Positions 22,995 to 55,394 of a stretch of DNA of 64,000 bases are shown here, in pieces. A program made the translations under genes and the position numbers. The number at the start of each line of letters is the position of its first letter. The stretch's first letter is position 1. This stretch comes from an uncultured Lachnospiraceae bacterium (GTDB lineage: Bacteria; Bacillota; Clostridia; Lachnospirales; Lachnospiraceae). A model generated the notes under the pieces. It saw nothing but the letters and a program-made list of their open reading frames with translations. It was not told where the DNA came from and ran no database searches. The stretch is from assembly GCA_905235745.1 (NCBI GenBank), contig CAJOMN010000002.1, forward strand, positions 62,001-126,000, written 5' to 3'.

Positions 22995-22996
22995 AA

Positions 22997-24181: not shown

Positions 24182-25347
24182 GCAAAGACAAGAAAAAGAT
24201 CCTGTATTTAATGGAATATCCGATCGATCTGCCCGGAGGCGGTCAGGAATCGACCAAGACTCTTTGCGAGCAGATCGCAAAGGACGGATCGTTTGAGCCG
24301 ATAGTCGCCTGCCCGGAGCTGCTGTCGACCTCTGCGGACGATTACGGTTACAGGGTCATAACTTATCCGTCGGATGAAAACCGTGAGTGGTCAAGGATTC
24401 GCAGGATCAGAAACTTCATAGGAAGGATCGGACAGTTCAGAAAGATAATAAACGATGTCAGACCGGATCTCATTCACGTGTCCATGTCGGAATCGCTTAT
24501 TACTTACGGCTTCGTGCGCAGAGCCGGAAGGTATTCCGATATACCGTTCATATATACCGACAGAGGTCTTCGGACCGGATACAGGAAGCATTCCCTTATA
24601 TGCATCAAGGCAACGATGAAGCATGCACAGAGGATGCTTACGACTACGCAGTATAACGCATCGTTATGGAAGAGCGAGATATCCACTCCGGTGACGGTGA
24701 TATACAACACTATAAGCGGTGCATTTGCCAATTACGATCCCGACGGACGCAAAATGGCAAGAGTAAAATACGATATACCGGACAAAATGCCTGTTATCGG
24801 ATTCGCGGGACGTATATCCGGGGAAAAGGACTGGGGAAAGGTTCCCGGAGTCGTTGCCGCCATAGCGGCAGCGGGGATAGAGTTCAAGGTCGCTCTTGTC
24901 ATGTCGGTATACGAAGACAGGGACGCGGAAACAGTACGAAACGTCAGGAGCGGCATCTCGGACGTTATCGGTATAGACAATCTTATCTATATGCAGGATC
25001 TTAACCAGAACGAGATCTCCGATTACTATTATCTCGTGGATTATTTCATAATGACAAGCTGCTTCGAGTCATTCGGGAAAGCCGCAGTTGAGGCGATGAG
25101 CAGAAAGTGTGTCGTACTGTCCACCGCGGTCGGGGGTCTTCCGGAGGTGATAGGAACCCCCGATGATCTGTATGATATGGAAGACCTTTCAAAGCTTACG
25201 GACAGGATAAAAGCGCTTGAAGCAGATGAGGAAGCAAAAGACCGCGAACGCGAAATGTTCTATAAGCGGTATATGGATAATTTCACACAGGACAGGAATA
25301 CCCGGGGTCATCTGAATGTCTACCGCGAAATACTCGAGACGGAGTAA
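24178..25347 (+). CDS. GT4 glycosyltransferase
   Basis: A 389-residue GT-B protein beginning KKKILYLMEYPIDLPGGGQE, the glycine-rich acceptor loop. It continues with IGFAGRISGEKDWGKVPGVV and the donor signature CFESFGKAAVEAMSRKC, with both glutamates, then STAVGGLPEVIG. It is a retaining transferase by family. It sits between another GT4 and a flippase in an unbroken run, so it probably contributes to the unit exported by the flippase at 25351. Confidence 0.88.
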   Translation: MSKDKKKILYLMEYPIDLPGGGQESTKTLCEQIAKDGSFEPIVACPELLSTSADDYGYRVITYPSDENREWSRIRRIRNFIGRIGQFRKIINDVRPDLIHVSMSESLITYGFVRRAGRYSDIPFIYTDRGLRTGYRKHSLICIKATMKHAQRMLTTTQYNASLWKSEISTPVTVIYNTISGAFANYDPDGRKMARVKYDIPDKMPVIGFAGRISGEKDWGKVPGVVAAIAAAGIEFKVALVMSVYEDRDAETVRNVRSGISDVIGIDNLIYMQDLNQNEISDYYYLVDYFIMTSCFESFGKAAVEAMSRKCVVLSTAVGGLPEVIGTPDDLYDMEDLSKLTDRIKALEADEEAKDREREMFYKRYMDNFTQDRNTRGHLNVYREILETE

Positions 25348-25350
25348 TAA

Positions 25351-31700: not shown

Positions 31701-31771
31701 GCAGCGATGATACCGGCAGCAGGAAGGAGAAAAAGCCGCGCAAAAAAGCCGGAGTTAAGGCGGCAGATTGA
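28715..31771 (+). CDS. RND efflux permease (AcrB/HAE family)
   Basis: A 1018-residue inner-membrane pump. It has the usual twofold layout: one helix, a large periplasm-type domain, six helices, and repeat. Signatures include the N-terminal LNRPVAVIVLIAGLI, helix 4 GMMVDNSIVVIEMCF (one acidic residue where AcrB has Asp-Asp), and the second-half GFLMLIGIVVNNGIIFVDY. It is driven by the proton or ion gradient. It is translated with its adaptor (17-nt overlap, GAGG before the ATG). No TolC-like partner is present, as expected for a Gram-positive. Confidence 0.94.
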   Translation: MRSLIKTSLNRPVAVIVLIAGLIIFGISSITGMSLQLIPDMEMPMVMIQTVYPMAGPEDVERLVTKKIEDGCGSLSGLDTTYSYSMENVSIVLLQFEYGTDIDDSYMDVREALDVVKPELPDDAKDPVVATMDFNAAPVMELSVDSTTDDVSEFVEETLTPELDKISTITQIEVSGGQEDYISIELIPENLKQYNVSVNTIATTVGSANFTYPAGSANYGGQQVDISSRVEYKTPEELRQIPISTATGQTIHLSDVANVHYASKEGSSYSRFKGEDNLSVSISKQQSASAVTVSSKVHDVIDSLRDRYPDIEIYVVYDSADVIKSSLQSIAETLLLGIVITMIVLFIFFGDIKGSLIVGSSMPVSLLMTFLLMSFMGYSLNMITMGALVIAIGMMVDNSIVVIEMCFRKKDDGLDYKDAAYEGTRIVLNSIIASTITTMVVYLPLAAMKDLSGQLFGQLGYTIVFALAASLISAITLVPLCFAYYRPVEKKESAVNRFLDRFSAGYSKVLAKFLNHKITTAVTALVIFAVSIVLIQFINKQLFPDTDEGQLAITVTYRPGTNIDTVDAKVRQIEEFVKESEYIDNYSGTAGVTSGTVNAYVADGVKKSTAQIVDEFTQELEDYADNCEISVTATSSMGITSFGGGNTYEVAFEGTDLEDLEETLLEVDSIVMNVEGVISSSSSMGNTASRVKVDIDPINAAANGLTPVMIGASLNTAINGSNAMKVTIDDKTYQITVEYPRDEYETMNDVENMFVTNAMGNDVPLRDVADFVYTDSPQQIVRQDGRYYASVTATVRSDERAAVTEAIEDALAGYVPPRTVEKTENQETEIMNDEFASIFKAIATAIILVYMVMAIEFENLRYSVMVMFCIPFSLIGSIFLLLVTRGLLSMVSLMGFLMLIGIVVNNGIIFVDYTNQLRDDGMNTADALIETGKSRLRPILMTTLTTILSMIPMALGIGRNGKLMQGMALVICGGLLASTTLTLLLLPTFFMIIHKRSDDTGSRKEKKPRKKAGVKAAD

Positions 31772-31857: not shown

Positions 31858-33177
31858 ATGAGTCTGTATGAAGATATCAGGAACCAGAAGGAAAAGATAG
31901 CTCTTGTCGGTCTTGGCTATGTGGGAATGCCGATAGCAGTTGCTTTTGCCAAAAAGGCAAAGGTGATCGGATTTGATCTGAACAAGGAGAAGATTGCCGC
32001 ATATAAGGCCGGTAAGGATGCTACCAAGGAGGTCGGTGATGATGCGATCTCCAAGACTACGGTTGAGTTCACATCCGATCCGTCGGATCTTAAGGGAGCC
32101 AGATTCCATATAGTTGCGGTTCCGACACCGATCAATCAGGACAAAACTCCCGATCTGTATCCGGTTGAGTCCGCAAGTGAGATACTGGGACGCAATCTTA
32201 CAAAAGGATCGATAGTCGTGTATGAATCGACAGTGTATCCGGGTGTTACGGAGGATATATGCGTGCCTATACTCGAAAGGGAATCGGGCTTAAAATGCGG
32301 AGTTGATTTCAAGGTCGGCTATTCACCGGAAAGGATCAATCCCGGCGACAAGGTACATCGTCTTGAAAACATCAAAAAGATAGTATCGGGAATGGATGCC
32401 GACACACTTGAGGAGATCGCGAACGTCTATGAGCTCGTGATAGAAGCGGGAGTGCACAGGGCAGGCAGCATAAAGGTTGCCGAGGCGGCAAAGGTAGTCG
32501 AGAATTCCCAAAGAGATATCAATATCGCATTCATCAACGAGCTGGCGATGGCATTTGACAAGATGGGCATTGATACGAACGAGGTCATCGATGCCATGAA
32601 TACGAAGTGGAATGCATTGGGATTCCGTCCGGGGCTTGTCGGAGGGCACTGCATCGGCGTGGATCCGTATTATTTTGTATACGAGGCCGAAAGGCTCGGA
32701 TATCACTCGAGGATAATATCCGCCGGAAGGCAGATCAATGATGATATGCCCAATTACGTCGGAGAGCAGATAGTAAAGCAGCTTGTACTTGCCGGCAAGA
32801 GGGTCAGGGATGCCAAGATCGTGTTCTTCGGAGCAACATTCAAGGAAAACTGTCCCGATGTCCGTAATTCCAAGATAATGGAGATACTCCGCTATCTTGA
32901 GCAGTATGAGATAAAGCCGCACCTTGTGGACACGTGGGCAGATCCGCAGGAGGTAAAACGCGGATACGGATATGATCTTGACAGCGAGAAGAACTCATAT
33001 GATGCCGATTGCATCGTACTTGCGGTAGCGCATGAGGGCTATAAGAACAGGTCGCTCAAGGAATGGGATTCCTTCTTTAAGCCGGGCGACAACAGTGAGA
33101 AGGTAATAATAGATATTAAGGGTATACTTGATAACAACGAAGTTACGGAAGCGGGGTACAGATATTGGCGCTTATAG
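31858..33177 (+). CDS. UDP-HexNAc (or related) 6-dehydrogenase, TviB/WbpA-type
   Basis: A 439-residue nucleotide-sugar dehydrogenase that oxidises C6 of a UDP-sugar to the acid, giving for example a UDP-N-acetylhexosaminuronate. The NAD-binding start is IALVGLGYVGMPIAVAFAKK; the catalytic cysteine lies in GLVGGHCIGVDPYYF. The MSLYEDI opening and the block lengths fit the TviB/VipA group better than UDP-glucose dehydrogenase. The ATG at 31858 gives that opening; TTG 31849, closer to GGAG, is also possible. The deacetylase gene behind it overlaps by 13 nt. Confidence 0.88.
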   Translation: MSLYEDIRNQKEKIALVGLGYVGMPIAVAFAKKAKVIGFDLNKEKIAAYKAGKDATKEVGDDAISKTTVEFTSDPSDLKGARFHIVAVPTPINQDKTPDLYPVESASEILGRNLTKGSIVVYESTVYPGVTEDICVPILERESGLKCGVDFKVGYSPERINPGDKVHRLENIKKIVSGMDADTLEEIANVYELVIEAGVHRAGSIKVAEAAKVVENSQRDINIAFINELAMAFDKMGIDTNEVIDAMNTKWNALGFRPGLVGGHCIGVDPYYFVYEAERLGYHSRIISAGRQINDDMPNYVGEQIVKQLVLAGKRVRDAKIVFFGATFKENCPDVRNSKIMEILRYLEQYEIKPHLVDTWADPQEVKRGYGYDLDSEKNSYDADCIVLAVAHEGYKNRSLKEWDSFFKPGDNSEKVIIDIKGILDNNEVTEAGYRYWRL

Positions 33178-33920
33178 TCAATGCGGACGACTTCGGGATA
33201 AGCGAAGAAGTAAATGCTGCAATAGCTGAGGCGTTTGAAAAAGGACTTGTTGACAGAACGACGCTTATGGTGAATATGCCCGATGCTGCTGGTGCAATGG
33301 AGATTGCGCGTAAGAGAGGATTTGCAGATAAGGTCGGACTTCATCTTAATCTTACATCCGGAAAACCGCTTACCCGCGAAATGGCAGCCGACAGGCTGAT
33401 GTGCGGTCAAAACGGCGAATATACGGCAGAGTTTGCCGGATGCCTTAAGACGCGATTTTTTCTCCCGAAGGATACAAGGGATAATATCGGGAAGGAGCTT
33501 CGGGCCCAGCTTGATGAATACGGAAAGCTCGGAGGAACGCTGTGGCATATTGACTCGCATCATCATGTCCATACAGATCCGTCCGTATGGAGTGTATTAC
33601 AGAAGGTCTTGAAGGACTATCCGGTCACGTCGGTCCGCCTGGGAAGAAATATGTACAGGGGAGGCAATCCCCTCATGCACCTGTATAAGGCGATGCTGAA
33701 TGCCTCAATCAGGCGGTTTTGCAACGGCAGACCGCGCTATTTCGGTTCTGCCCGGGATTATGCGGCATTTGAGCCGTATATCGCCAATATGCCGCCGGAC
33801 GAGCAGGCCGAGATCATGGTGCATCCGGTCTATGATGATAACGGGAATGTTTGCGACAAGTGTATGGATCAGTTGTTGGTAATGAAGCCTGTTCGGTTCT
33901 TCGATGAAGCAGGGTCATAA
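33165..33920 (+). CDS. YdjC/ChbG-family carbohydrate deacetylase
   Basis: A 251-residue protein with the family motifs ALIVNADDFGISEEVN (metal-binding Asp-Asp at 9-10), GLHLNLTSGKPL, and the histidine cluster HIDSHHHVH. Members remove acetyl groups from N-acetylated sugars in a metal-dependent way. The protein must start at TTG 33165, because the next in-frame Met is after the essential Asp-Asp. The 13-nt overlap with the dehydrogenase suggests that the two act on the same amino sugar or glycan. No signal peptide, so it is cytosolic. Confidence 0.88.
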   Translation: MALIVNADDFGISEEVNAAIAEAFEKGLVDRTTLMVNMPDAAGAMEIARKRGFADKVGLHLNLTSGKPLTREMAADRLMCGQNGEYTAEFAGCLKTRFFLPKDTRDNIGKELRAQLDEYGKLGGTLWHIDSHHHVHTDPSVWSVLQKVLKDYPVTSVRLGRNMYRGGNPLMHLYKAMLNASIRRFCNGRPRYFGSARDYAAFEPYIANMPPDEQAEIMVHPVYDDNGNVCDKCMDQLLVMKPVRFFDEAGS

Positions 33921-33962: not shown

Positions 33963-34007
33963 AACATAAATGCCTTCGAAAGGTTGTCTTTCGGGGGCAT
34001 TTATGTT
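33963..34007. terminator. Long stem-loop, possible terminator or attenuator before rmlB
   Basis: Bases 33963-33982 pair with 33988-34007 across a 5-nt loop. There are 12 perfect pairs (AACATAAATGCC/GGCATTTATGTT), two G-T pairs and six perfect pairs (CGAAAG/CTTTCG). The GC-rich inner stem followed by a T-rich arm on either strand could act as a two-way intrinsic terminator. It ends 39 nt before rmlB, so it separates the dehydrogenase/deacetylase genes from the Rml block. Confidence 0.5.
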
Positions 34008-34046
34008 ATGCTTACAAATGATTATGTTCAAATGGAAGGAACTGAT

Positions 34047-35120
34047 ATGAAAACATACCTTGTGACCGGAGGCGCCGGGTTCATAGGATCGAACTTTATA
34101 CATTATATTCTGGACAAATATGGGAACAATGTGAGGGTGATAAACGTTGACCTTCTTACCTATGCCGGTAATCTCGGGAATCTTTCCGATGTCGAGGATC
34201 GTCCGGAATATTCGTTCGTGAAGGCGGATATATGTGATTCCGATGCCATATCCGCTGTGTTTGACAAATATGATATAGATTATGTGGTCCATTTTGCCGC
34301 AGAGTCACATGTTGACAGAAGCATACGCAATCCCGAAGTTTTTGCGAGAACGAATGTACTGGGCACTCTTAATATGCTTAACTGTGCCAGGAATGCATGG
34401 CAGGACGGTGACGGATTCAGGAAGGGAGTAAGATTCCTTCATGTATCGACGGATGAAGTGTACGGATCTCTTGCCGATGAAGGGGAATACTTCTACGAGA
34501 CCACTCCTTACGATCCTCACAGCCCGTATTCGGCAAGCAAGGCGTCGTCGGACTTCATGGTAAAGGCTTATGTCGATACCTACGGTTTTCCGGCGGTCAT
34601 AACTAATTGCAGCAATAACTACGGGCCTTTCCAGTTCCCGGAAAAGCTGATACCTCTTATGATCAATAATGCGCTTGAGGGCAGGAAGCTTCCGGTATAC
34701 GGCGACGGTAAAAACGTCAGGGACTGGCTGTATGTCATGGATCATGCCAAGGCAATAGACATGGTTCTTGAGAAGGGACGGATCGGGGAAAAGTATAACA
34801 TCGGCGGACACAACGAAAAACAGAACATAGAGATCGTCAGGATCATAATAGATACCATAAAGGAAATGCTTCCCGATGACGACAAGAGGCAGAAATATAT
34901 CAATTATGATCTTATAACATATGTTGAAGACAGAAAGGGTCATGACAGAAGATACGCCATTGCCCCCGACAAAATCAGAAGCGAAATAGGCTGGGAGCCC
35001 GAGACTATGTTTGCCGAGGGTATCAGGCTTACTATCCGCTGGTATTTCGAACACACCGAATGGATGCGGCAGGTAACGAGCGGCGACTATCAGAAGTATT
35101 ACGAGGAAATGTACAAATGA
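34047..35120 (+). CDS. rmlB: dTDP-glucose 4,6-dehydratase
   Basis: A 357-residue extended SDR enzyme forming dTDP-4-keto-6-deoxyglucose. The N-terminal cofactor site is [18 protein letters not shown]. The catalytic region has the STDEVYGSL segment with Asp-Glu, and [11 protein letters not shown] with Yxxx[17 protein letters not shown] is the substrate-binding block of RmlB. GGAAGGA lies 6 nt upstream of ATG 34047, which fixes the start. With rmlA and rmlC nearby the expected route leads towards dTDP-L-rhamnose. Confidence 0.96.
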
Positions 35121-35986
35121 AAGGCATAATTCTCGCGGGCGGGTCGGGAACGAGATTGTATCCGCTCACAAAGGCGATGTCAAAACAGATGATGCCTGTA
35201 TATGACAAGCCCATGATATATTATCCGCTTTCGATACTTATGCTGTCCAATATCAGGGATATCCTCATAATATCTACGCCGAGGGATCTGCCGGCATTTC
35301 GCGAGCTGTTCGGAGACGGAAGCCAGCTGGGTCTTAATATGACCTATGCCGAGCAGCAAACGCCGAGAGGATTGGCCGATGCTTTTATAATAGGTGAGGA
35401 CTTTATAGGAAACGACAGTGTCGCCCTGATCCTTGGAGACAATATATTCTACGGACAGAGCTTTTCGAAGGTCCTGAAGGAAGTGGCGGCAAGGGATTCG
35501 GGCGCAACGATCTTCGGCTATTATGTGAGAGATCCGAGAGAATACGGGGTCGTCGAGATAGGTGAGGACGGAAGAGCCCTGTCGATCGAAGAGAAGCCGC
35601 AGGATCCCAGGTCCAATTACGCCGTTCCGGGGCTGTATTTCTATGACAACGATGTTGTACGTATAGCAAAGGAAGTCAAGCCCTCCGCAAGAGGAGAGAT
35701 AGAGATAACATCGGTTAACAATGCCTATCTGGAGCGGGGCGCGCTCTATGTTGAAAAGCTCGGACGCGGTTTTGCCTGGCTTGATACGGGAAATCACGAA
35801 AGCCTGCTTGACGCGGCGGATTTTGTACGGGCGTTCCAGAAACGGCAGGGAATGTATATATCTTGTATAGAGGAAATAGCATACAGAAGGAACTTTATTG
35901 ATAAGGATCAATTGCTAAAGCTTGCAGAGCCTTTGCTCAAAACGGACTACGGGAAGTATCTTGTGGACGTTGCCAACGGTCTGTAA
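35117..35986 (+). CDS. rmlA: Glucose-1-phosphate thymidylyltransferase
   Basis: A 289-residue nucleotidyltransferase making dTDP-glucose. It begins [18 protein letters not shown], with the signature G-x-G-T-R and a downstream catalytic lysine in [17 protein letters not shown]. It also has [10 protein letters not shown] and [17 protein letters not shown], all characteristic of RmlA. ATG 35117 overlaps the rmlB stop (ATGA) and follows GAGGAAATG. It supplies the substrate for RmlB. Confidence 0.96.
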
Positions 35987-36024: not shown

Positions 36025-36048
36025 ATGACATGTAATAAGGGGAAGATC

Positions 36049-38604
36049 ATGAAAAAAAATGAATTTGACGGCAGGGGAGCCGAAGAATGTTCGGAGTTTA
36101 ACTGGGTTGAACTTTCCGAGAAGTTTGATGCCGAAGATGACACATCGGGAATGATCGGTTCGATCAGTTACACGGAACCGGAATCAAACGCAATCGTCAA
36201 TGAGACTTTATCACAGATCGTATCGGAAGATCTGAAGGTCGACACATCAGATATGGACGGCGTCAGAGAGGCTGTCGAGTCTTTTTATGCTTATGAGGTA
36301 AAGCCCGCCGGGAAAAAGAATAATCCCAAAGAGCAGGACAGTGAACAGGCAATCCGTAAATCCGTTGATGAAAAGATCATAATCAGATCCGAGGAACTGA
36401 AGAAGAAGCGCAAAACCGGGAGCAAACCCTCCGGCAGGAAAAAACCCGAAAAGGCTGCAGCGAATCCGGCACCGGCGAATGATTCTTTCAGACACGCAAA
36501 GGGTCTCGAAAAATACAGAAAAATGGGGATACTTCCCACCAAGACAGACGGCCCATCCGAGTTTCGCAGGAAATCGGCGAACTGGCGGTACGATGACGTT
36601 CCCGAAGCTTTGGTTACGGATGAAGCAATAGATAAGGCGGCCGAGGAAGAATCCTTCAAAGATAAACTGAAGAAAATGACCTCCGTCCAGTGGGGAGCCG
36701 TTGTAATGGCAGCTGTCGTACTCATAACTTCGGTCATGACTACGAACGTATATGCGCAGTACAGAGGCGAACTCAACAAGGAAACCGCTTTGACCGGACT
36801 CCCTGCTTATATCGACGATGCATCCGCAATTGCCTATTCCGGAGAGGATTACCTGACCGAAGATGTGGAAATGGAGGATGCTGCATCCCCCCTGACCGAT
36901 TCGGAAGGAAAGATACTCTCGCTTATACTTACAAGTGTTGAGAAGGATCTCAAGGTAAAGCTTGTCGATGAAGATGATACACTTGTAAAGGGTGTGGAAT
37001 GGGGAATAACGGTAACTGACAGCAAGGATAATGAGAGCAGCTACGAAGATGATGACGAGGACGGGATAATCCACCTTACCGGCATCAGTGCCGGAGATTA
37101 TTCGGTCTCGATAAATGAATCGGACTCCCTCAGCGGATATGTGTATCCTACGGTCGGTCAGAAGGTAAGCGTAAAGGCCAAGGTAGAATATAAGGTTATC
37201 GCCAATATCAAGGACGAGATCAAGAAGGAGAGCGAGGTTAACGCCGCTGCCGAGGACAATGGCAACAAAGCGGCCGATGTCGAGGTCGGAACAGCGCCGG
37301 CGGATACGGTAGAGTTTGTTGAATCCTCAAGGGAAGAAAACGGAGAGACCTATGTTGAGGCAACGGTAGATATTAGCAAGACCGAAGTGATCGCTTCGGC
37401 TGGAGATCGGCTGATAAGTGCCATTCATAAGCTCTCGGATTCTGTCAGAACCGGCTCGGAAAATGTAATTGCGGGCATCGGGATCAGGATGGTTGCCGAT
37501 GATGATCCGACACCTACGGAGACGCCGACACCTACGGAAGAACCGACCCCCACGGATACACCGACACCTACGGAAGAACCGACCCCGGTGGAGACACCGA
37601 CACCGACTCCGGTTCCGACAGCGACTGCGACGCCGACACCAACGCCGACACCAACGCCGACGCCTACATCGACACCGACGCCAACCCTTACCCCGACGCC
37701 GACACCGACGCCAACTCCTACGGTGATACCGGCAGATACATACAAGCCCGAAGCACAGCTATATGACTCTGCGAAGAACCCTCTGTATGTATATGATAAC
37801 GGAGCGTACAGACTGGCAAAATATGCCGACTACAATAATTTCTCGACCTTCTACAGAAAAGAGGTCGGCTATGTATACACCGGCTGGCAGAATATAGACG
37901 GCAAAACATATTATTACACCAAGGATCACGAGAAGGTTACCGGCACCCAGATTATCGGCGGAGTCTCCTATACGTTCAATTCGGACGGCTCGCTTGACAA
38001 CGGGTCAGGTGTTCTCGGAATAGATGTTTCCAAATATCAGCCGAGTATCAACTGGAGTTCCGTGAAGTCTTCGGGGATTGATTTTGTAATAATCAGATGC
38101 GGATACCGCGGAGCATCGACCGGCGCACTTATCGAGGATCCGTACTTCAAGAGCCATATCAAGGGCGCCAAGAGTGCGGGGCTTAAGGTCGGGGTATATT
38201 TCTTCTCCACGGCGCTTTCGGAGGCCGAGGCGGTCGAGGAAGCAAGTATGTGCGCGGCTCTGTGCAGCGGGTATGGATTGAATTATCCGGTATTCCTGGA
38301 TGTCGAGTCATCATCGAGACCGGGCTACAACTCATTGTCGGCATCAGAAAGAACCGCCAATATCAAGGCTTTCTGCCAGACTATCGCATCCGCCGGATAT
38401 ACGCCGGGGCTGTATGCGAACAAGACATGGCTGACGGAGAAGATCAATACGTCATCGCTTTCATGCAAGATATGGCTGGCACAGTATAACGCAAACGGTC
38501 CCACATACAGCGGACGCTATGACATCTGGCAGTATACGTCCAAGGGAAGCGTTAACGGTATCAGCGGAAATGTTGACATGAATAAGAGTTATCTGAAGTA
38601 TTAA
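36049..38604 (+). CDS. Membrane-tethered GH25 muramidase with long cytosolic N-terminus
   Basis: An 851-residue type II membrane protein. Residues 1-212 are charged and predicted cytosolic. One helix (about 213-235, [16 protein letters not shown]) crosses the membrane. An outside region of about 250 residues with a Cna-B-like segment is followed by a Pro/Thr repeat stalk (about 485-563) and a choline/glucan-binding-like repeat (about 596-650, [17 protein letters not shown]). The GH25 lysozyme domain spans 655-851, with [10 protein letters not shown] (Asp659) and FLDVES (Asp751, Glu753) as catalytic residues. It should cleave peptidoglycan between MurNAc and GlcNAc. GGGGAAG precedes ATG 36049. 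Its place inside the Rml/export operon suggests remodelling the wall for polymer passage or attachment. Confidence 0.92.
37502..37735 (+). repeat. In-frame Thr-Pro repeat region (TPTP / TPTEEP)
   Basis: About 78 codons of short tandem repeats built on ACACCGACGCC- and ACACCTACGGAAGAACCGAC-like units encode Thr-Pro, Thr-Glu-Glu-Pro and Thr-Pro-Val. The repeats form an extended stalk in the muramidase. Repeat number may vary between strains by slippage or recombination. Confidence 0.9.
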
Positions 38605-38613
38605 GGAGGATTA

Positions 38614-39162
38614 ATGGGAAAGATCATAGTTGAAACCACGCCGATAGACGGTCTGTATACAATCACCCCCACGGTATTCGGGGACAATCGCGGATATTTT
38701 ATGGAGACATACAATATAGCGGATTTCAGAGAAGCCGGGATCGACTGCGAGTTTGTTCAGGACAACCAGTCGGCGTCAAAAAGGGGAGTGATAAGAGGAC
38801 TTCATTTTCAGATCAATTACCCGCAGGACAAGCTTGTACGGGTTATCAGAGGCGAAGTATTCGATGTAGCCGTGGATATGCGCAGGGATTCCGCAACATA
38901 CGGGAAATGGTACGGGGTACGATTATCCGAGGAAAACAAGAAAATGTTTTTTATACCGAAGCATTTTGCACACGGATTCCTCGTGCTTTCGGACTATGCC
39001 GAGTTCACATATAAATGCACCGAACTGTATCATCCCAATGATGAGGGCGGGATCATCTACAATGATCCCGATATCGGGATCGAATGGCCCACAGATGACG
39101 GGATGGAACTGATCTTTTCGGATAAGGACAAGAAGTGGCCTACTCTCAAGGAGCTTAAATGA
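38614..39162 (+). CDS. rmlC: dTDP-4-dehydrorhamnose 3,5-epimerase
   Basis: A 182-residue cupin enzyme. It has DNRGYFMETYNIADFREAG, FVQDNQSASKRGVIRGLHFQ (with the catalytic-type His), VRVIRGEVFDVAVDMR, and FIPKHFAHGFLVLSDYAEF. GGAGG immediately precedes the start. It converts the RmlB product to the L-rhamno 4-keto sugar. The following reductase gene rmlD is not present in the window, so the reduction is encoded elsewhere or a different 6-deoxy sugar is made. Confidence 0.95.
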   Translation: MGKIIVETTPIDGLYTITPTVFGDNRGYFMETYNIADFREAGIDCEFVQDNQSASKRGVIRGLHFQINYPQDKLVRVIRGEVFDVAVDMRRDSATYGKWYGVRLSEENKKMFFIPKHFAHGFLVLSDYAEFTYKCTELYHPNDEGGIIYNDPDIGIEWPTDDGMELIFSDKDKKWPTLKELK

Positions 39163-40142
39163 CAAAAAAGAAAACGGTCATCGCAATTGTTACTGCGGTG
39201 ATCGCAGCGCTTTTATTCTATATCATCTTTCATCATAATCCGTTTGCAAATCCTAACGAGGAAATGATCAAAAAGATCATTTCCTGCGTTATTCTTATTG
39301 CTGTATATATTGTATTCATATTCAAATATGACAAGATTGTTATCCTTCCCGTAGAGCTGTTTCAAAACCGGCAGCTTATATGGAAGCTTGCAAAGAATGA
39401 TTTTAAGACAAGGTATGCGGGATCTTATCTGGGGATAGTCTGGGCGTTTGTCCAGCCGGTCATTACCGTACTGCTGTACTGGTTTGTGTTTACGGTAGCG
39501 CTGCCGACGAGAGCGGTTGCCGTCAAAGGTGATATAGAGGTACCGTATATACTGTGGCTTATTGCCGGTATCGTTCCGTGGTTTTTCTTCTCGGAGGCGC
39601 TCTCAAACGGGACCAACGCTCTTCTCGAGTACAATTATCTTGTCAAAAAGGTTGTTTTCAAGATCAGTATCCTTCCGATAATCAAGATAATATCGGCACT
39701 GTTTGTTCACGCATTCTTTATACTGTTTACGATCTTATTGTTTACCTGTTACGGCTACTATCCCGATCTGTATACATTGCAGCTTATATACTACAGCGCG
39801 TGCATGTTTATATTTGTGCTGGGATTATGTTACATCACCTGTTCGATAATAATATTTTTCCGCGATCTGGGACAGATCATATCCATTGCGCTTCAGGTCG
39901 GTATATGGGCGACCCCGATTCTGTGGAATATTTCGACGCTGTCCCCGCGCCTTCGTATTATATTCAAGCTGAATCCGATGAACTACATCGTTGAAGGCTA
40001 CCGTGATTCGCTGATCGACAAGATATGGTTCTGGGAGAACTTCTACTCCACGGCGTATTTCTGGATACTGACCATGTGCGTGTTTGCGTTCGGAGCCATC
40101 ATATTTAAGCGTTTGAAAGTGCATTTTGCGGATGTACTGTAA
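39159..40142 (+). CDS. wzm: ABC-2 polysaccharide export permease (Wzm/TagG type) with extra N-terminal helices
   Basis: A 327-residue membrane protein of the polysaccharide ABC-2 permease family. It has the cytosolic amphipathic stretch LIWKLAKNDFKTRYAGSYLG, then IVWAFVQPVITVLLYWFVF, WFFFSEALSNGTNAL, and a C-terminal MNYIVEGYRDSLI block. Two extra hydrophobic helices (about residues 7-25 and 40-57) precede the usual six. The ATG overlaps the rmlC stop by 4 nt. It should form the channel that exports a finished lipid-linked glycan, with the ATPase encoded next. Confidence 0.93.
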   Translation: MTKKKTVIAIVTAVIAALLFYIIFHHNPFANPNEEMIKKIISCVILIAVYIVFIFKYDKIVILPVELFQNRQLIWKLAKNDFKTRYAGSYLGIVWAFVQPVITVLLYWFVFTVALPTRAVAVKGDIEVPYILWLIAGIVPWFFFSEALSNGTNALLEYNYLVKKVVFKISILPIIKIISALFVHAFFILFTILLFTCYGYYPDLYTLQLIYYSACMFIFVLGLCYITCSIIIFFRDLGQIISIALQVGIWATPILWNISTLSPRLRIIFKLNPMNYIVEGYRDSLIDKIWFWENFYSTAYFWILTMCVFAFGAIIFKRLKVHFADVL

Positions 40143-40150: not shown

Positions 40151-41491
40151 ATGGGTGATTTTCTGGAACAGATTGAACAACCGAATAGCGGCATGATGCA
40201 TACCGATCATGTCAGATCGGAAAAGATATCCGACGAGATCGCGATAAAGGTGGATCACATATCCAAGGTCTATAAGCTCTATGACCGGAACCGTGACAGG
40301 CTCAAGGAAGCCTTCCACATGGGAAAGAACATCCACTGCCGGGAGCACTACGCCCTCGATGACGTAAGCTTTGAGGTATACAAGGGGGAAACCGTCGGAA
40401 TAATAGGAACAAACGGTTCCGGAAAATCAACCATTCTCAAGATCATAACCGGGGTTCTCAGTCCGTCGGCAGGGGATCTGGAGATAAACGGGCGGATCTC
40501 GGCGCTTCTTGAGCTCGGCGCCGGGTTTAATATGGAGTTTACCGGGATAGAAAACATATACTTAAACGGCACTATGCTCGGTTTTTCGGAAAAGGAGATT
40601 GACAGCAGGCTGGATTCGATCCTTGAGTTCGCTGATATAGGCGATTTTGTATACCAGAAGGTCAAGACATATTCAAGCGGTATGTTTGTGCGTCTGGCGT
40701 TTGCGGTTGCCATCAATATCGATCCCGAAATACTCATAGTTGATGAAGCCCTGTCCGTCGGGGATGTCTTTTTCCAGAACAAATGCTACAGAAAATTCGA
40801 GGATTTCAAGAAACAGGGCAAGACGATACTGTTTGTCAGTCATGATCTCGGAAGCATCAGCAAATACTGCGACAGGGTCATCCTGCTTGAAAAGGGACAC
40901 AAGATCGGCGAGGGCGACCCGAAAGAGATCATAGATATGTACAAGAAGGTTCTTGTCGGGCAGCTCGACCGGGCGGTCGATGTCGATAAAAGCTCCGAAC
41001 TGTCCGCCGGATCGAAGTGGAAAGACCTTATGCAGCTCAATCCGAACGTGGATGCATACGGAAGCGGGCTTGCCGAATTTGAGGATTACTGTACATACGA
41101 CAACAGCGGAACCATCACGAATACGATAATCAAAGGTGATGAATTCACCGTCAGGGTCAAGATACGATTCTTCGAAACGATACAGGATCCGATATTTGCA
41201 CTTTCGTTCAAAAACATGCAGGGTACCGAGATCACCGGTACGAATACGATGTTTGAAAAGATCACTACCGGAGTGTGCGAAGCCGGGAGTGAATATATAG
41301 TTACTTTTACGCAGAATATGTCGCTCCAGGGCGGCGAATACCTTATTTCACTCGGATGCGTCGGATACAGGGAAGGGAATTTTACCGTTTACCACAGGCT
41401 GTATGACGTATTCAATCTTACAGTTATCTCATCAAAGAATACTACCGGGTTTTACGATATGAATTCGATCGTTACGGTAAGTAAAGTATAG
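40151..41491 (+). CDS. wzt: ABC polysaccharide export ATPase with Wzt-type C-terminal domain
   Basis: A 446-residue protein. The ATPase part (about 30-255) has Walker A GTNGSGKST, signature YSSGMFVRLAF, Walker B ILIVDEALSVGD and the switch FVSHD. The C-terminal 190 residues form a beta-rich extension (TVRVKIRFFETIQDPIFALS, NMSLQGGEYLISLG) like the carbohydrate-binding Wzt C-domain, which in E. coli O8/O9a recognises the capped chain end before export. Plain TagH-type ATPases lack it. The gene is followed after 8 nt by a methyltransferase-kinase fusion. Confidence 0.93.
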   Translation: MGDFLEQIEQPNSGMMHTDHVRSEKISDEIAIKVDHISKVYKLYDRNRDRLKEAFHMGKNIHCREHYALDDVSFEVYKGETVGIIGTNGSGKSTILKIITGVLSPSAGDLEINGRISALLELGAGFNMEFTGIENIYLNGTMLGFSEKEIDSRLDSILEFADIGDFVYQKVKTYSSGMFVRLAFAVAINIDPEILIVDEALSVGDVFFQNKCYRKFEDFKKQGKTILFVSHDLGSISKYCDRVILLEKGHKIGEGDPKEIIDMYKKVLVGQLDRAVDVDKSSELSAGSKWKDLMQLNPNVDAYGSGLAEFEDYCTYDNSGTITNTIIKGDEFTVRVKIRFFETIQDPIFALSFKNMQGTEITGTNTMFEKITTGVCEAGSEYIVTFTQNMSLQGGEYLISLGCVGYREGNFTVYHRLYDVFNLTVISSKNTTGFYDMNSIVTVSKV

Positions 41492-41499: not shown

Positions 41500-43833
41500 A
41501 TGTCTTATATGAATCCTGACCGCATCGGAAGCGTGGTCGTTGATTACACATATTACAACGGAGAGGATCTGTACAGCGAGGGTGCTGCCGAGGACAGGCT
41601 TCTTGATTTTGTCAAAAATCATACATCCCTTGAGTATGAGCATTATATCCAGGAGACAAGATCGTGGTCGGTAATGTACCATCTGTCCTACATAAGGGAA
41701 AATGTCATCAGCTGGATCCCGATAAAGGAATCCGACAGCGTGCTTGAGATCGGGAGCGGATGCGGCGCCGTTACGGGAGCCCTTGCAAGGCTTGCAAAGA
41801 GCGTGACGTGTGTTGAACTGTCCAGAAAGAGGAGTCTCATCAACGCATACAGAAATAAAGAGTATGACAATGTGACAATCATGGTCGGTAACTTTGAGGA
41901 TATAGAAAAAGGATTGACCGAAAAGTATGACTACATAACGCTCATCGGCGTGCTCGAGTATGCCGGATCGTATATTAACGACGAAAGACCGTATACCGCG
42001 CTTCTGGAGAAACTGAAAAGCCATCTTAAGCCCGGCGGAAAGATCGTAATAGCGATAGAGAACCGTTTGGGAATGAAGTATTTCGCCGGATGCAAGGAGG
42101 ATCACCTCGGTGTTTATTTCGGGGGGATAGAAGGTTATTCTTCCGATTCGAAGGTCAGAACATTTTCAAAGCGGCGCCTTGAAGATCTGCTTGAAGCGAC
42201 CGGATACAAAAACAGCAGGTTCTATTATCCCTATCCCGATTACAAGCTGCCGCATACAATATATTCGGACGAAAAGCTTCCGGGTATCGGAGACCTGGAC
42301 ACCAATATCCGTAACTTTGATGATGACAGGCTCGTTCTGTTCGACGAAACAAAAGCGTTCGATTCCATGATAGAAGAAGGCCGTTTTCCGGATTATTCGA
42401 ATTCATTTATCGTTCTCGCATCTGTCGCGCAGGACTGGCAGAAGGATATGAACCTTCCGATATTTGCCAAATACGGCAATGAGCGTATGGAAGAATACAG
42501 GGTATGCACTCTGATAGACAGGAATCCGGAGGGAGAATACAGGGTATTCAAGGCAGCGCTTTCAACGCATGCCAATGCGCACGTAGACAAGCTGAGCGCC
42601 AATTACTCCCGGCTGGAGGAACAGTTCGGAAAAACCGGGCTTGCGCCTGTAAAGTGCTATCTGCAGAAAGGACGGGAAAGAGGAGTGGCACTGGCCGGAG
42701 TCGCATCCAAGGCAAAGGATTCGGTCAGATTTGACTATATGTCCGGGATAACGCTTGACGATTATCTCAATGAGCTTGAATCCCGGGGATGCTACCCGCA
42801 AATGGAATCGGTGATATTGGAGTACTGCAGGAAGCTTGAAGGATTAGCCGGTGTTACTGAATTCCGGCGGTCGGTCGGATTTGATGAGGTATTCGGCAAG
42901 AGAGAGTTCAAAAAGAGATATTCCGCCCTCAATCCGTGCAATTTCGATATGATCTTCTCGAATATAGTCCTGGACAGAACAGAGCTTGAAAACGGAACGT
43001 GGAACGTTCTTGACTACGAATGGGTATGGGATTTTCCCATTCCGATCCGGTTTGTGATATACAGGGCACTGTATTATCATTTCCGTAACCGGACGGATGA
43101 CGGGTTTTCGCTGTATCTGTCCAGAAAAGGAATGGATGTGTACAGCCTGTGCGGCATAGATATAGGCGAACGGATGCTTTTCAGTGAAATGGAGCATTCC
43201 TTCCAGGTATATATAATAGGCGGCGCTGCATCGCTCGAAGTCATGCAGGTTCTGATGCCGACGACTACGATCAGGATAGATAATATCGTTAAGATAGGAT
43301 CGTATCTTCGAAATCTCGACACCCCCAAGATATATTTTTCCAGAGGCAACACGTTCATGTCCGATAACCAGCTGGGAATAATAGGTCATGTCGACAACGG
43401 GCATGTATCGATGAATATTCCGTTTGAGCGGTATATCAATTCGCTCAGGATAGATCCGACCGAGTATCCGTGCCTGCTTCATATAGACAAACTGTGTTAT
43501 TCACTGAACGATGGTTTCAAGCAGGATGTCGGGCAGATAATCGTAAACGGTTATGAGATATCAAGCGGTACGTTCCTGTTTGATACGAACGATGCACAGA
43601 TCATCCTCGAAGGCATTCCGCAAAATGCCAAGTCGCTCGAAGTGGGATACCTGGTCTCGATGATAGAGGATCCGTTCTATGAGGATATCCTGAATGTATT
43701 AAAACGGGAAACAGAGCGGGCGGTTGAGGAAAAGCAGACATTTTCGTACCGTTCCAAGAGAAAGCTCGGGATCATTAAAGAGGATACATTGCCCGAAGGT
43801 TATGTAAGAGCCGATCTGGCCGATCTTAGGTGA
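41500..43833 (+). CDS. Methyltransferase-kinase fusion, WbdD-like candidate chain terminator
   Basis: A 777-residue protein with three parts. The first is a class I SAM methyltransferase (about 75-260) with VLEIGSGCGAVTGALA (81-96), an acidic CVELS strand end, and LKPGGKIVIAIEN (176-188). The second is a kinase-like domain (about 330-560) with YRVFKAALS (candidate ATP Lys351), a catalytic-loop NFDMIFSN whose Asp483 and Asn488 have kinase spacing, and VLDYEW with candidate metal Asp505. The third is a beta-rich C-terminal region of about 200 residues. WbdD, which phosphorylates and methylates the growing O-antigen end, has the same methyltransferase-then-kinase order. Neighbouring wzm and wzt fit. 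The kinase call is from motifs by eye; residues await test. Confidence 0.75.
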   Translation: MSYMNPDRIGSVVVDYTYYNGEDLYSEGAAEDRLLDFVKNHTSLEYEHYIQETRSWSVMYHLSYIRENVISWIPIKESDSVLEIGSGCGAVTGALARLAKSVTCVELSRKRSLINAYRNKEYDNVTIMVGNFEDIEKGLTEKYDYITLIGVLEYAGSYINDERPYTALLEKLKSHLKPGGKIVIAIENRLGMKYFAGCKEDHLGVYFGGIEGYSSDSKVRTFSKRRLEDLLEATGYKNSRFYYPYPDYKLPHTIYSDEKLPGIGDLDTNIRNFDDDRLVLFDETKAFDSMIEEGRFPDYSNSFIVLASVAQDWQKDMNLPIFAKYGNERMEEYRVCTLIDRNPEGEYRVFKAALSTHANAHVDKLSANYSRLEEQFGKTGLAPVKCYLQKGRERGVALAGVASKAKDSVRFDYMSGITLDDYLNELESRGCYPQMESVILEYCRKLEGLAGVTEFRRSVGFDEVFGKREFKKRYSALNPCNFDMIFSNIVLDRTELENGTWNVLDYEWVWDFPIPIRFVIYRALYYHFRNRTDDGFSLYLSRKGMDVYSLCGIDIGERMLFSEMEHSFQVYIIGGAASLEVMQVLMPTTTIRIDNIVKIGSYLRNLDTPKIYFSRGNTFMSDNQLGIIGHVDNGHVSMNIPFERYINSLRIDPTEYPCLLHIDKLCYSLNDGFKQDVGQIIVNGYEISSGTFLFDTNDAQIILEGIPQNAKSLEVGYLVSMIEDPFYEDILNVLKRETERAVEEKQTFSYRSKRKLGIIKEDTLPEGYVRADLADLR

Positions 43834-43844
43834 TCAGTGTGAAC

Positions 43845-45890
43845 ATGAGGTCTTCAAGAGAAAATCAACTGCTTGCGTATAGGCAGGAACGCTTCAGGCA
43901 GACCATGCCATACGCATACGAACTGGTCTATATGAGTGATGCGGCAGAAGACGAATCCGGCGATGCCGCGCCATCGGGCAGGATAATCCTGTTTCCCGAT
44001 GACAATGTCAATATACTCAATTTTGAAGGTATTACCGAAGACTATGTGATCTTCGTAAACCGGAGCGGAGTGTGCGAGCCCGACATGGTAAGACGCCTGC
44101 TGGCAGGCGGAAACGGCGCAGATGTTATCTATCCCGATGAGGATTATATAACGGATACTACCGCCGATATCAGTGACATTAACGCCAGGATACGCGTACT
44201 TCGTACACCGTGGAGAAAACCGGACTATTCGCCCGATACTGTCGTATCATTTCCCTATATTGAAACATGCTTTGCGATCAGAACGCACTTTGCCAGACTA
44301 GTTCCGGCCATGAAGCGCTCCCCGGAGATAGGGGATAACGTGCGGTGCCGTGATTTTCTGCTGCGTGCTCTTGAGCGTGCGCAAAGTGTCGCCCATGTTC
44401 CGCAGATACTGTATCACCGCGACCTTTCGGCGCTTACAAAAGATGTGTACGAAATAACCGATGAGCAGATATATGAGGCTCTGTATGAGCAGTATAACAG
44501 GCCGGGGTACATACTCTGCAGGGAGGCAGCAGAAAAGAGACGCGGGATAAATGTTATACCGGCTGCCCCCAAGGAAGGGCCTCTTGTCTCGATCATCATA
44601 CCGTCCAAGGATCAGCCAAGGATACTGAAGGAATGTATAAGGAATATAAGGATAAATGCCGGAAAGGTGCCGTATGAGATCATCGTAGTGGATAACGGCA
44701 GCAGCGATGAGAACCGGGACGTTACGGAAAAATATGTCACCCAGCTCCCGGGAGGGAAGGGCACATATATCTATGAACCCCGGGAATTCAACTATTCGGC
44801 CATGTGCAACCTCGGAGCCGCATCGGCAAAGGGGAAGTATCTTCTGTTTATGAATGATGACGTTGATGTGATAACGGATGATTTTCTGGAAAAACTTCTC
44901 ATATATGCAGCCAGAAGCTATGTCGGAGCGGTCGGCTGCAAGCTTCTCTATCCGGATGATATCACGATCCAGCATATAGGGGTGATGAATATCAACCGAG
45001 GACCGACCCACAAGCTGGCCGGTATGTCCGACGCAAAGGTGAGGTATTATTGCAGAAACCGGTTCGCATGGAATGTGCTTGCGGTAACCGGCGCATGCCT
45101 GATGGTAAACAGGGAAAAATACTATCAAGCAGGCGGTTTTTATGATAAAATAAAGGTCGGCTATAATGACGTGGATCTGTGCGCAAGACTTCTGGAGAAC
45201 GGTTACTATAATGTTGTCAACAATGAATGTGCGATGACACACCATGAATCTCTTGCAAGGGGAGCCGACGGGTTAAGCGACGAGAAGTCGGACAGACTTC
45301 GCGAAGAGAGGCAGGTGCTGTACAGCCTGCATCCGTGGATGACAGAGCGCCCGGATCCGTTTTACGGTTATATGCTCGATGAGGACACTATCGATATAAG
45401 ATCAGGCGCAGTCTGCGAATATCAGATCACCGACCGGCGCAACAAGACAAAAGAACTTCCCAGAGTGCCGGGTAAGAGGTCGGATAAAGCAATGATGTCG
45501 ATAGACATGTGCTCTGTTGAAAGGGCGATCGCACCGGATGCCGAAGACGCCTATGTGATCGAAGGCTGGGGCCTGTACCGTTCGTGGGATAACGCTCTTG
45601 TCAGAAAGTTCATTGTACTCATCCCGCTTGATGAATACGATACACAGCAGAAGGACTGCATTATCGCATCGGTCTGTCCAAAATACAGAAGCGACATAAG
45701 CGAAGTGTTCCCTGATGAGATAAATGTTGATCTTGCAGGGTTTGTATGCAGGATCCCGTTCAGTGCACTTGATCCCCACCGAAGGTACAGGATAGGTGTG
45801 CTGCTTCGAAAAACTACAGGACTGAAGAGCAGCAGGGTTGCTCTGGGTGATATATATGAACCGCGAAGAGGAATTGTTAAGGACGAGTGA
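43845..45890 (+). CDS. Large GT2 glycosyltransferase
   Basis: A 681-residue protein. The N-terminal 230 residues resemble a degenerate GT-A-like domain (GRIILFPDDNVNIL, VIYPDEDYI). The catalytic GT2 domain (about 240-500) starts PLVSIIIPSKDQPRILKECI and has EIIVVDNGSSDENRD, LLFMNDDVDVITDDF (DxD-type), GACLMVNREKYYQAGGF and GYNDVDLCARLLENG. A C-terminal 130-residue tail may bind partners. Start is uncertain among GTG 43830, GTG 43839 and ATG 43845; AGGTGA at 43828 fits the later two. It probably extends the chain exported by the ABC system. Confidence 0.88.
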   Translation: MRSSRENQLLAYRQERFRQTMPYAYELVYMSDAAEDESGDAAPSGRIILFPDDNVNILNFEGITEDYVIFVNRSGVCEPDMVRRLLAGGNGADVIYPDEDYITDTTADISDINARIRVLRTPWRKPDYSPDTVVSFPYIETCFAIRTHFARLVPAMKRSPEIGDNVRCRDFLLRALERAQSVAHVPQILYHRDLSALTKDVYEITDEQIYEALYEQYNRPGYILCREAAEKRRGINVIPAAPKEGPLVSIIIPSKDQPRILKECIRNIRINAGKVPYEIIVVDNGSSDENRDVTEKYVTQLPGGKGTYIYEPREFNYSAMCNLGAASAKGKYLLFMNDDVDVITDDFLEKLLIYAARSYVGAVGCKLLYPDDITIQHIGVMNINRGPTHKLAGMSDAKVRYYCRNRFAWNVLAVTGACLMVNREKYYQAGGFYDKIKVGYNDVDLCARLLENGYYNVVNNECAMTHHESLARGADGLSDEKSDRLREERQVLYSLHPWMTERPDPFYGYMLDEDTIDIRSGAVCEYQITDRRNKTKELPRVPGKRSDKAMMSIDMCSVERAIAPDAEDAYVIEGWGLYRSWDNALVRKFIVLIPLDEYDTQQKDCIIASVCPKYRSDISEVFPDEINVDLAGFVCRIPFSALDPHRRYRIGVLLRKTTGLKSSRVALGDIYEPRRGIVKDE

Positions 45891-47862
45891 ATACTATAAA
45901 GATCTGTACGAGAAGGAACGTTTAAAATGTGCGGATCTGACGGAAAAGCTTGTGGATGCCGAAGCTGCGGTGGCGGATCTTAACTACAAGATGGATAAGC
46001 TCCGCAATTCGCTCATCTGGAAAATGGTATACCCGTTCAGGCTCGCCTGGAGCCATACCAAGAATCTGTTCATCCGGATCAAAAGATACGGCAGTATCTC
46101 AAATCTCAAAAAGAAGATCGAAAGCAAGATAATAGAAAGACGCGCTTACAAGAGTTACGGAACCCTTTCCATGCCCTCGCCCGAAGAGGCACAGCGGCAG
46201 GCAATGACCGTATTTCCGAGGAATATACTGTTTTCGATACTTGTTCCTCTCTACAACACCCCGGAACCTTTCCTGCGTGAAATGATAGATTCTGTCGCTG
46301 CCCAGACCTATTCAAACTGGGAACTGTGTCTTGCGGACGGTTCCGATGAGGAGCATGCATACGTGGAGCAGGTCGTCAGGGGGTACGGCGACGCGAGGAT
46401 CAAGTATGAAAGGCTCGCGTCCAATCTCGGGATATCGGGCAACACCAATAAGTGTTTTGAGATGGCAAAGGGTGATTATATCGGATTGTTCGATCATGAC
46501 GATGTTCTTCATCCGACCGCCTTATATGAATATATGAAAGTCATATGCGACAAAGGTGCCGACTACATATACTGTGATGAGGCGACTTTTTCCGGCAGGT
46601 CGATCGACCATATGATAACAATGCATTTCAAGCCGGACTTTGCCCCGGATAATCTGCGCGCAAATAACTATATATGCCATTTTTCAGTATTTTCGAGAGA
46701 ACTCGTGAAGGAATGCGGAACATTCCGCCCCGAGTACGACGGAAGCCAGGATCACGATATGATATTAAGGCTTACAAGAGCCGCGAAGAATATCGTACAT
46801 GTGCCGCAGATACTGTACTATTGGCGCTCGCATGCGGGAAGCGTTGCCTCCGACATTAATGCGAAAAGCTATGCGATAGATGCGGCAAAGGGCGCTGTGG
46901 CGGCGCACCTGACTGCCTGCGGATTCTCCGGATATAAGATCGAAAGTTCGAGGGCATTTGAGACTATATTCCGGATAAGATATGCATTGACCGCTAATCC
47001 GCTTGTTTCCATAATCATTCCGAACAAGGATCATACGGAAGATCTTCGAAGATGCATAGAATCCGTAACAGACAGAACCTCTTACGATAATTACGAGATC
47101 ATCGTAGTGGAGAACAATTCCGTAACCGACGAGATCCGCCAATACTATGAAGCGATCGGAATGCATCCGAAGATAAGAGTTGTGGAATATGAGGGTGAGT
47201 TCAATTATTCCGCAATCAACAATTTCGGAGCAGGATATGCACGGGGAGAGTATCTCGTGCTTCTTAACAATGATACCGAGGTCATTACGCGCAGCTGGCT
47301 CGAGGAATTGCTCATGTATGCGCAAAGGGATGACGTCGGTGCAGTGGGATGCATGCTGTATTATCCCGATTATACTATCCAGCATGCAGGTATCGTGCTC
47401 GGAATGGGCGCTCACAGGACTGCGGGCCATTCCCATTATAAAATGGCCAAAGAAAACCTCGGATATATGGGAAGGCTGTGCTATGCCCAGAATGTCTCGG
47501 CGGTCACCGGAGCATGTCTTATGGTCCAAAAGGCGCTGTTTGATGATGTGGGCGGGCTATCGGAGGATCTCGCGGTTGCGCTCAACGATGTGGATCTGTG
47601 CCTGAAGCTTCGAAAGCGGGGGCTTCTTAACGTATTTACCCCGTTCGCCGAACTCTTTCACTATGAATCTGCATCCCGGGGAACGGATGTTACGGACGCG
47701 GCGAGTACACAAAACGCCGAAAGATATAACAGGGAGTGCGATCTGTTCAGGGACAGGTGGAAAGCAGAGCTTGAAGCCGGAGATCCGTACTTCAATCCGA
47801 ACTTTTCACTGGATTACTCCAATTTTGTCCTTGCGGGGAACAAAAAGAGCATGGTTGGATAA
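45856..47862 (+). CDS. Double-domain GT2 glycosyltransferase with coiled-coil N-terminus
   Basis: A 668-residue protein. Residues 1-50 form a coiled coil (ERLKCADLTEKLVDAEAAVA). The first GT-A domain begins FSILVPLYNTPEPFLREMID and has LFDHDDVLHPTALYEYM. The second begins PLVSIIIPNKDHTEDLRRCI and has LLNNDTEVITRSWLEEL and ALNDVDLCLKLRKRGLLNVF. Both domains keep DxD-type motifs, so the protein could form two linkages, as in rhamnan-type polymerising transferases. GGGTGAT before ATG 45856 decides the start. The gene overlaps its neighbour by 35 nt. Confidence 0.9.
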   Translation: MNREEELLRTSEYYKDLYEKERLKCADLTEKLVDAEAAVADLNYKMDKLRNSLIWKMVYPFRLAWSHTKNLFIRIKRYGSISNLKKKIESKIIERRAYKSYGTLSMPSPEEAQRQAMTVFPRNILFSILVPLYNTPEPFLREMIDSVAAQTYSNWELCLADGSDEEHAYVEQVVRGYGDARIKYERLASNLGISGNTNKCFEMAKGDYIGLFDHDDVLHPTALYEYMKVICDKGADYIYCDEATFSGRSIDHMITMHFKPDFAPDNLRANNYICHFSVFSRELVKECGTFRPEYDGSQDHDMILRLTRAAKNIVHVPQILYYWRSHAGSVASDINAKSYAIDAAKGAVAAHLTACGFSGYKIESSRAFETIFRIRYALTANPLVSIIIPNKDHTEDLRRCIESVTDRTSYDNYEIIVVENNSVTDEIRQYYEAIGMHPKIRVVEYEGEFNYSAINNFGAGYARGEYLVLLNNDTEVITRSWLEELLMYAQRDDVGAVGCMLYYPDYTIQHAGIVLGMGAHRTAGHSHYKMAKENLGYMGRLCYAQNVSAVTGACLMVQKALFDDVGGLSEDLAVALNDVDLCLKLRKRGLLNVFTPFAELFHYESASRGTDVTDAASTQNAERYNRECDLFRDRWKAELEAGDPYFNPNFSLDYSNFVLAGNKKSMVG

Positions 47863-55393: not shown

Positions 55394-55394
55394 T

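Follow-up and report, generated by a model that had tools for sequence, protein, structure and literature searches.

The window, a stretch of 64,000 nucleotides of DNA from an uncultured Lachnospiraceae bacterium, encodes a GH25 muramidase that, judging from sequence comparisons, is co-inherited with one clade of the ABC-2 permease Wzm and has a long N-terminal tail, predicted to be disordered, only where that permease is encoded nearby. Our tentative reading, to which we give somewhat less than even confidence, is that this muramidase is dedicated to one ABC-exported wall polysaccharide and that its disordered tail may dock or position the enzyme at the export site. The presence of a tail with the exporter and its absence without it amount to a natural experiment supplied by comparative genomics, and make the coordination of export with a hydrolase testable in one operon. 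At issue are the way in which a long polysaccharide crosses the Gram-positive wall, the way in which it is attached, and a possible coordination of its export with hydrolases.

Gene and protein architecture

The gene is an open reading frame of 851 residues at 36049-38604 on the forward strand. Its ATG at 36049 is preceded by the purine-rich sequence ggggaag; a second in-frame ATG lies 24 bases upstream, at 36025, and of the two 36049 has the better purine-rich lead. The initial annotation had described a charged N-terminus, one membrane helix, a stalk of Thr and Pro, a repeat that binds the wall and a GH25 domain, encoded within an Rml/export operon, and the reading frame, hydropathy, composition and Pfam matches agree with that description. 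Beyond it, we noted a SpaA-like domain, the conserved extension that follows this domain, and a possible signal peptidase site. About 212 residues come first and are followed by a hydrophobic segment, the SpaA-like domain, the Thr-Pro stalk, the wall-binding repeat and the C-terminal GH25 domain, with these coordinates:

36049..38604, +, gene for the predicted bitopic GH25 muramidase, 851 aa (open reading frame list, Pfam)
36049..36690, +, cytosolic tail, residues 1-214, predicted disordered (pLDDT, conservation)
36097..36120, +, N-terminal short motif FNWVELSE, residues 17-24 (alignment of 17 homologues)
36364..36411, +, central motif of 16 residues, residues 106-121 (alignment)
36556..36585, +, juxtamembrane motif of 10 residues, residues 170-179 (alignment)
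36688..36756, +, hydrophobic segment, residues 214-236; its last three residues, V-Y-A (234-236), may be a signal peptidase I site
36907..37386, +, SpaA-like ectodomain with conserved extension, residues 287-446 (Pfam, conservation, structure model)
37489..37743, +, Thr-Pro stalk, residues 481-565 (composition; unstructured in the model)
37744..38004, +, wall-binding repeat region, residues 566-652 (Choline_bind_3 just under the cut-off; structured in the model)
38005..38601, +, GH25 domain, residues 653-851, with D659, D751, E753 and D843 (Pfam, alignment, structure model)

The GH25 profile of Pfam matches residues 658-838 (E 2.6e-34, 119.6 bits against a cut-off of 27). Residues D659, D751, E753 and D843 align with D9, D98, E100 and D198 of 1jfx, which we take to be the catalytic residues of that enzyme, and all four are invariant in 17 homologues, among which the domain has a mean top-residue fraction of 0.90. 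In a structure model built with 19 sequences (model 2), the GH25 part has a pLDDT mostly around 90, and comparison with the PDB pairs the model with the barrel of GH25 structures, LytC among them, at Z 20.3-24.2, the next entries being at about 14. Alignment and model together suggest that the GH25 domain is catalytically competent, and on the alignment with 1jfx we rejected a pseudoenzyme.

Outside the catalytic domain, Pfam places SpaA at residues 300-379 (E 9.8e-7, above the cut-off) and Choline_bind_3 at residues 611-646 (26.6 bits against a cut-off of 27). The 66 residues that follow the SpaA-like domain (381-446) are strongly conserved, their mean top-residue fraction of 0.86 in the 17 homologues being near that of the enzyme, and they hold a family-wide DTVEWVES-like motif. 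One structure comparison gave weak Fn3-like matches for the SpaA-like part; taken alone, this part had no match among the PDB matches listed with model 2, which carries little weight since the GH25 domain filled that list. The stalk contains 33 T and 28 P in a slice of 86 residues. In relatives its place is taken by domains of the bacterial Ig-like kind, Big_2 in L063 and, with a weak match, aBig_2 in L053, or by other low-complexity stretches, and it seems to be an exchangeable spacer. Minus-strand open reading frames across the stalk were not accepted as evidence.

The region inside the cell had initially been annotated as a 212-residue cytosolic domain rich in serine. The length of about 212 residues before the hydrophobic segment holds, but models and alignments describe a predicted disordered, charged and fast-evolving tail with short conserved motifs rather than a domain, and serine makes up 9.4% of it against 9.5% of the whole protein. 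Nearly all of residues 1-202 have a pLDDT below 50 in the first structure model, which, together with the lack of a convincing profile match over the region in Pfam and NCBIfam, led us to reject a folded sensor domain inside. The mean top-residue fraction of the tail in the 17 homologues is 0.53, against 0.90 for the GH25 domain. Within the short motifs, Trp19 of the N-terminal one is invariant in the 17 aligned homologues, as are S170, F172, R173 and W179 of the juxtamembrane one, and the central motif is recognisable in most of the window's genus. Tails in other genera are charged, of low complexity and without evident sequence similarity; counting only tails of at least 80 residues, their length is 90-541 in 34 proteins outside the window's genus and 168-601 in 19 within it. 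The first 40 tail residues hold more Phe and Trp than expected (42 seen, 22.6 expected; 18 proteins, with tails of fewer than 80 residues left out) in a test that was picked after looking at the data, Lys and Arg are also enriched there, and Trp alone, with one protein per genus, does not reach significance (p = 0.14). We regard the aromatic enrichment of the tails as suggestive only. A search of the window's own genome for paralogues of the tail, up to E 10, returned only the tail itself.

Genomic context

The initial placement of the gene between rmlA and rmlC was borne out, with rmlB and rmlA upstream and rmlC, Wzm and Wzt downstream, the start of rmlC lying 9 bases past the stop of the GH25 gene. 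The genes concerned are:

33984..35120, +, rmlB-like dehydratase
35060..35986, +, rmlA-like nucleotidyltransferase
38614..39162, +, rmlC-like epimerase
39159..40142, +, Wzm-like ABC-2 permease (PF01061)
40151..41491, +, Wzt-like ATPase with a Wzt_C domain (PF00005, PF14524)
41500..43833, +, methyltransferase with a long C-terminal part (MT)
43830..45890, +, GT2 glycosyltransferase (GT2a)
45838..47862, +, GT2 glycosyltransferase with two GT2 stretches (GT2b)

With an ABC-2 permease and an ATPase carrying Wzt_C, this is an ABC-exporter locus by the definition that we used. A strong RmlD match lies outside the window in the same genome (C2:53390-54247), and one LytR-CpsA-Psr gene is found elsewhere in the genome; these two genes make it plausible that the product is a rhamnose polymer and that an LCP enzyme attaches it. 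We dismissed both a special RNA structure in the stretch from rmlA to the GH25 gene (z = -1.28) and an excess of promoter-like sites (17 found against 16.2 expected).

Other genes of the window were also noted. A YdjC-like gene at 33165-33920, inside the rml operon, is conserved in loci of the genus. Directly before the sugar genes, 26962-31771 encodes a HlyD-type adaptor and then a protein of 1018 residues, presumably an RND transporter by its appearance. A second glycan gene set at 20890-26796, comprising a Bac_transf sugar transferase, glycosyltransferases and a member of the polysaccharide flippase family, suggests a second polysaccharide pathway beside the ABC one. Two predicted proteins of 465 and 242 aa, encoded at 53996-56506, have no Pfam match up to E 1e-5.

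The GH25 gene lies between rmlA and rmlC in all 18 loci of the window's genus that have both flanks, among 29 loci tabulated. The usual order in other genera is long GH25, rmlB, rmlA, short GH25, rmlC, Wzm, Wzt, MT and GT2, and some of their loci have the long GH25 only or the short GH25 only. The short paralogue, of about 430 aa, consists of one hydrophobic N-terminal segment preceded in most cases by about 6-10 residues inside, a SpaA-like ectodomain and GH25, and gave no match to the wall-binding repeat. It occupies the position between rmlA and rmlC in many genera (L101, L112, L119, L126 and others); we did not see it in the window's genus. A GH25 tree gathers the long type in a single supported group (SH-aLRT 98) and leaves the short type outside.

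Distribution and association with one Wzm clade

Each of the 37 genomes searched in the genus gave a match to the full protein (E up to 0.001), in some cases through part of it only. Searching with the ectodomain (residues 240-480) gave matches in 36 of the 294 order genomes, of which 34 are from the family, the window's own among them, and two are marginal; in the family sample, 45 of the 250 genomes have it, corresponding to 44 of 249 genera. It lies within about 10 kb of rmlC in 34 of these 45 genomes, a count for which the listings of ectodomain and rmlC matches, each from 250 family genomes, were matched by hand and G262 was included via L098, which is cut. The other 11 genomes are G047, G244, G054, G202, G116, G248, G222, G081, G080, G142 and G113. 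By sequence comparison, the inside region occurs throughout the window's genus and in many other Lachnospiraceae.

In a Wzm tree of 61 rows, made with a quick tree method and with 30 rows from loci found by searching with this GH25 protein and 31 from rmlC-found regions, all 40 GH25-bearing loci sit together in a single clade of 41. The remaining row, L065, was scored as lacking GH25, since the gene is cut by its contig. The GH25 label requires 2 changes on this tree compared with 17.6 in shuffles, none of 500 shuffles being as low. Among the rmlC-found regions, 11 of 40 carry GH25 in the rml cluster, all of them inside the Wzm clade. This tree and its labels indicate that the GH25 gene is co-inherited with one clade of Wzm.

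Presence of the tail with the exporter

We measured the tail as the open frame before the hydrophobic segment, which is independent of the choice of start codon. For long homologues with ectodomain, GH25 and a complete N-terminus, the open frame ahead of the segment is 94-425 residues in all 27 regions where Wzm lies on the same strand, and 6-38 in all seven regions without Wzm (Fisher p = 1.9e-7, uncorrected for relatedness). The seven rows without Wzm represent six genera, L168 and L169 (the latter from the order sample) being of one genus, and one of the seven, L180, has only 477 residues. Left out of both counts were L184 (N-terminus partly masked), L201 (cut), L182 (a short type of 528 residues) and the other short paralogues. 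A possible exception is L183 (G113), which has the ectodomain with about 69 residues inside and no Wzm in 7.7 kb, and whose contig ends before any GH25. On the GH25 tree the tail label takes 3 changes, of which strong branches force only 1, and events of tail gain or loss that are independent of one another are therefore few.

Tail-less forms start with short hydrophobic segments that are signal-like or lipoprotein-like, and in L174 and L175 the segment ends in a lipobox-like LSGC or LGGC. L168 and L169 keep rmlB-rmlA-rmlC-GH25 with no Wzm/Wzt in the region and no tail; a sugar transferase is present in the L168 region, the one scanned for it. The neighbours of the tail-less homologue of L174 are unrelated to glycan export, and those of L181 include a SpaA-repeat protein and a polysaccharide deacetylase. 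A protein of 1332 residues with four SpaA stretches (L181:3200-7198) adjoins the tail-less homologue of L181.

The initial annotation had named absence of the inside region from all homologues as grounds for abandoning its proposal; the tail is instead present in the window's genus and in every complete long homologue at a Wzm/Wzt locus. The absence of the tail from all seven long homologues without that Wzm lends new support to its suggestion of a link between the inside part and the export machinery. The accompanying idea of a sensory domain does not survive, the inside part being a predicted disordered tail. The annotation also proposed that the outside domain may open peptidoglycan to let the polymer pass; in EpaU/AtlE, the closest case that has been studied, loss of the enzyme left the structure and surface exposure of EPA as they were. 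Its interpretation is thus supported in part.

Possible functions of the muramidase and its tail

A muramidase dedicated to one exported polysaccharide would span the membrane, with its disordered tail in the cytosol, one membrane helix and the rest of the protein outside, where the SpaA-like domain, spacer stalk and wall-binding repeat would place the catalytic domain in the wall. Glycan strands might then be cut where the polymer is exported or attached, which could make room or strand ends, or could release polymer-laden fragments. Short motifs near the ends of the tail would let it act flexibly to dock and position the enzyme at the complex for export or synthesis. Several observations weigh against this reading. 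From genus to genus the tail shows no sequence conservation, which makes any docking motif degenerate, and the short paralogue at the same loci has hardly any residues inside in most regions. The cases without a tail are few, with one change forced by strong branches; conservation of V/A-Y-A in the window's genus would allow cleavage; and L183, where the contig ends inside the gene, is perhaps tail-bearing without a visible Wzm. The sequence comparisons hint that cutting and export are coordinated, and the tail could be a physical coupler to the Wzm/Wzt complex, the muramidase being switched on or held at the polysaccharide pore and the tail being lost on leaving the operon, but we consider a coupler of this kind somewhat unlikely.

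The protein might alternatively be an ordinary autolysin of the EpaU/AtlE or LytC type that remodels or sheds polymer-bearing wall, its place in the locus reflecting nothing more than recognition of that wall by its wall-binding part, with the tail as an anchor or solubility element. LytC is indeed among the closest folds. Excerpts of the published reports describe AtlE/EpaU of Enterococcus faecalis as a GH25 autolysin of the EPA locus whose deletion changed neither the structure nor the surface exposure of EPA; release of EPA depends on its activity (PMC12208459), and its wall-binding part binds by recognising decorations of EPA (PMC13343894). We judge this explanation unlikely, as it predicts neither a tail found only with Wzm nor a single Wzm clade.

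We find it distinctly doubtful that the inside region is a giant n-region and that signal peptidase I cuts after V-Y-A (residue 236), releasing the enzyme into the wall and leaving a tail that either has no job or steers secretion in the manner of extended YSIRK signal peptides. The hydrophobic segment spans approximately residues 216-234 (Kyte-Doolittle) and has VYAxYxG at its end in 45 loci of the window's genus; six loci of the genus do not, two of them having AYA or VYAKLKG and the rest being cut or having the region not shown. Cleavage is favoured by V/A-Y-A being kept in those genus members whose region was visible, by a hydrophobic core that is weaker in most of the window's genus (about 1.7-2.3) than in other genera (about 2.2-3.1), by the ordinary signal-like or lipobox-like segments of the tail-less relatives and, according to an excerpt of PMC12004944, by the existence of extended signal peptides with a targeting role. 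Other genera also have tails, yet the alanine at the matching place is not kept in them, and model 2 predicts one continuous helix over residues 212-249, unbroken across V-Y-A, which is mild evidence for a membrane anchor. Cleavage also leaves the occurrence of the tail with Wzm unexplained.

Finally, the tail could connect the enzyme with cell division in the way of MapZ, or with a Ser/Thr kinase in the way of E. faecalis MltG, the link to the exporter then being indirect. Excerpts do describe an FtsZ-binding region in the disordered cytosolic part of MapZ (PMC7055233) and phosphorylation of the disordered cytosolic segment of MltG by IreK (PMC12369325), in addition to which Phe and Trp are enriched at the start of the tails. 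We regard this explanation as very improbable, since division partners and kinases are general and loss of the tail without a Wzm locus would be unpredicted, and since no MapZ or MltG family is among the Pfam/NCBIfam matches.

Comparison with known systems

The window protein shares features with four known proteins. Like EpaU/AtlE, the window protein is a GH25 muramidase with a wall-binding part encoded inside a rhamnose-polysaccharide locus, the nature of the polymer being putative in our case. According to excerpts of its description, EpaU/AtlE has a signal peptide (the recombinant protein was made without residues 1-24), with the catalytic domain at the N-terminus and GW or DUF5776 repeats at the C-terminus, whereas the window protein has a wall-binding repeat followed by a C-terminal GH25 domain, together with a long inside tail, a SpaA-like ectodomain and a Wzm/Wzt locus. 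LytC of Streptococcus pneumoniae (2wwc, 2ww5) is likewise a modular autolysin with a C-terminal GH25 domain and matches our model at Z of about 23. Its wall-binding repeats precede GH25, in agreement with the matched residue ranges. Unlike the window protein, the matched LytC structure is without an inside tail or SpaA-like domain.

MltG of E. faecalis resembles the window protein in being a wall hydrolase that has a single membrane helix and, at its N-terminus, a long cytosolic segment that is disordered, but it belongs to the YceG catalytic family, and a tie to a polysaccharide locus is absent from the excerpted description (PMC12369325). No YceG domain is among the Pfam/NCBIfam matches of the window protein, in which the catalytic domain is GH25. 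MapZ of S. pneumoniae also combines an outside domain and one membrane helix with a disordered cytosolic part, in which a conserved N-terminal region binds FtsZ and there are membrane-binding helices; it differs in being a division beacon that the excerpts do not describe as an enzyme (PMC7055233). The window protein has no MapZ family among its Pfam/NCBIfam matches up to E 1, a comparison made with family profiles rather than with MapZ itself.

In the literature searched for this family and its features, we recognised no prior report of a tailed GH25 muramidase associated with one Wzm clade and bearing its tail only with the exporter. A GH25 autolysin in a rhamnan locus is the known theme of EpaU/AtlE, and what is new here, within that literature, is the combination of the tail with co-inheritance with a Wzm clade and with the presence of the tail only alongside the exporter.
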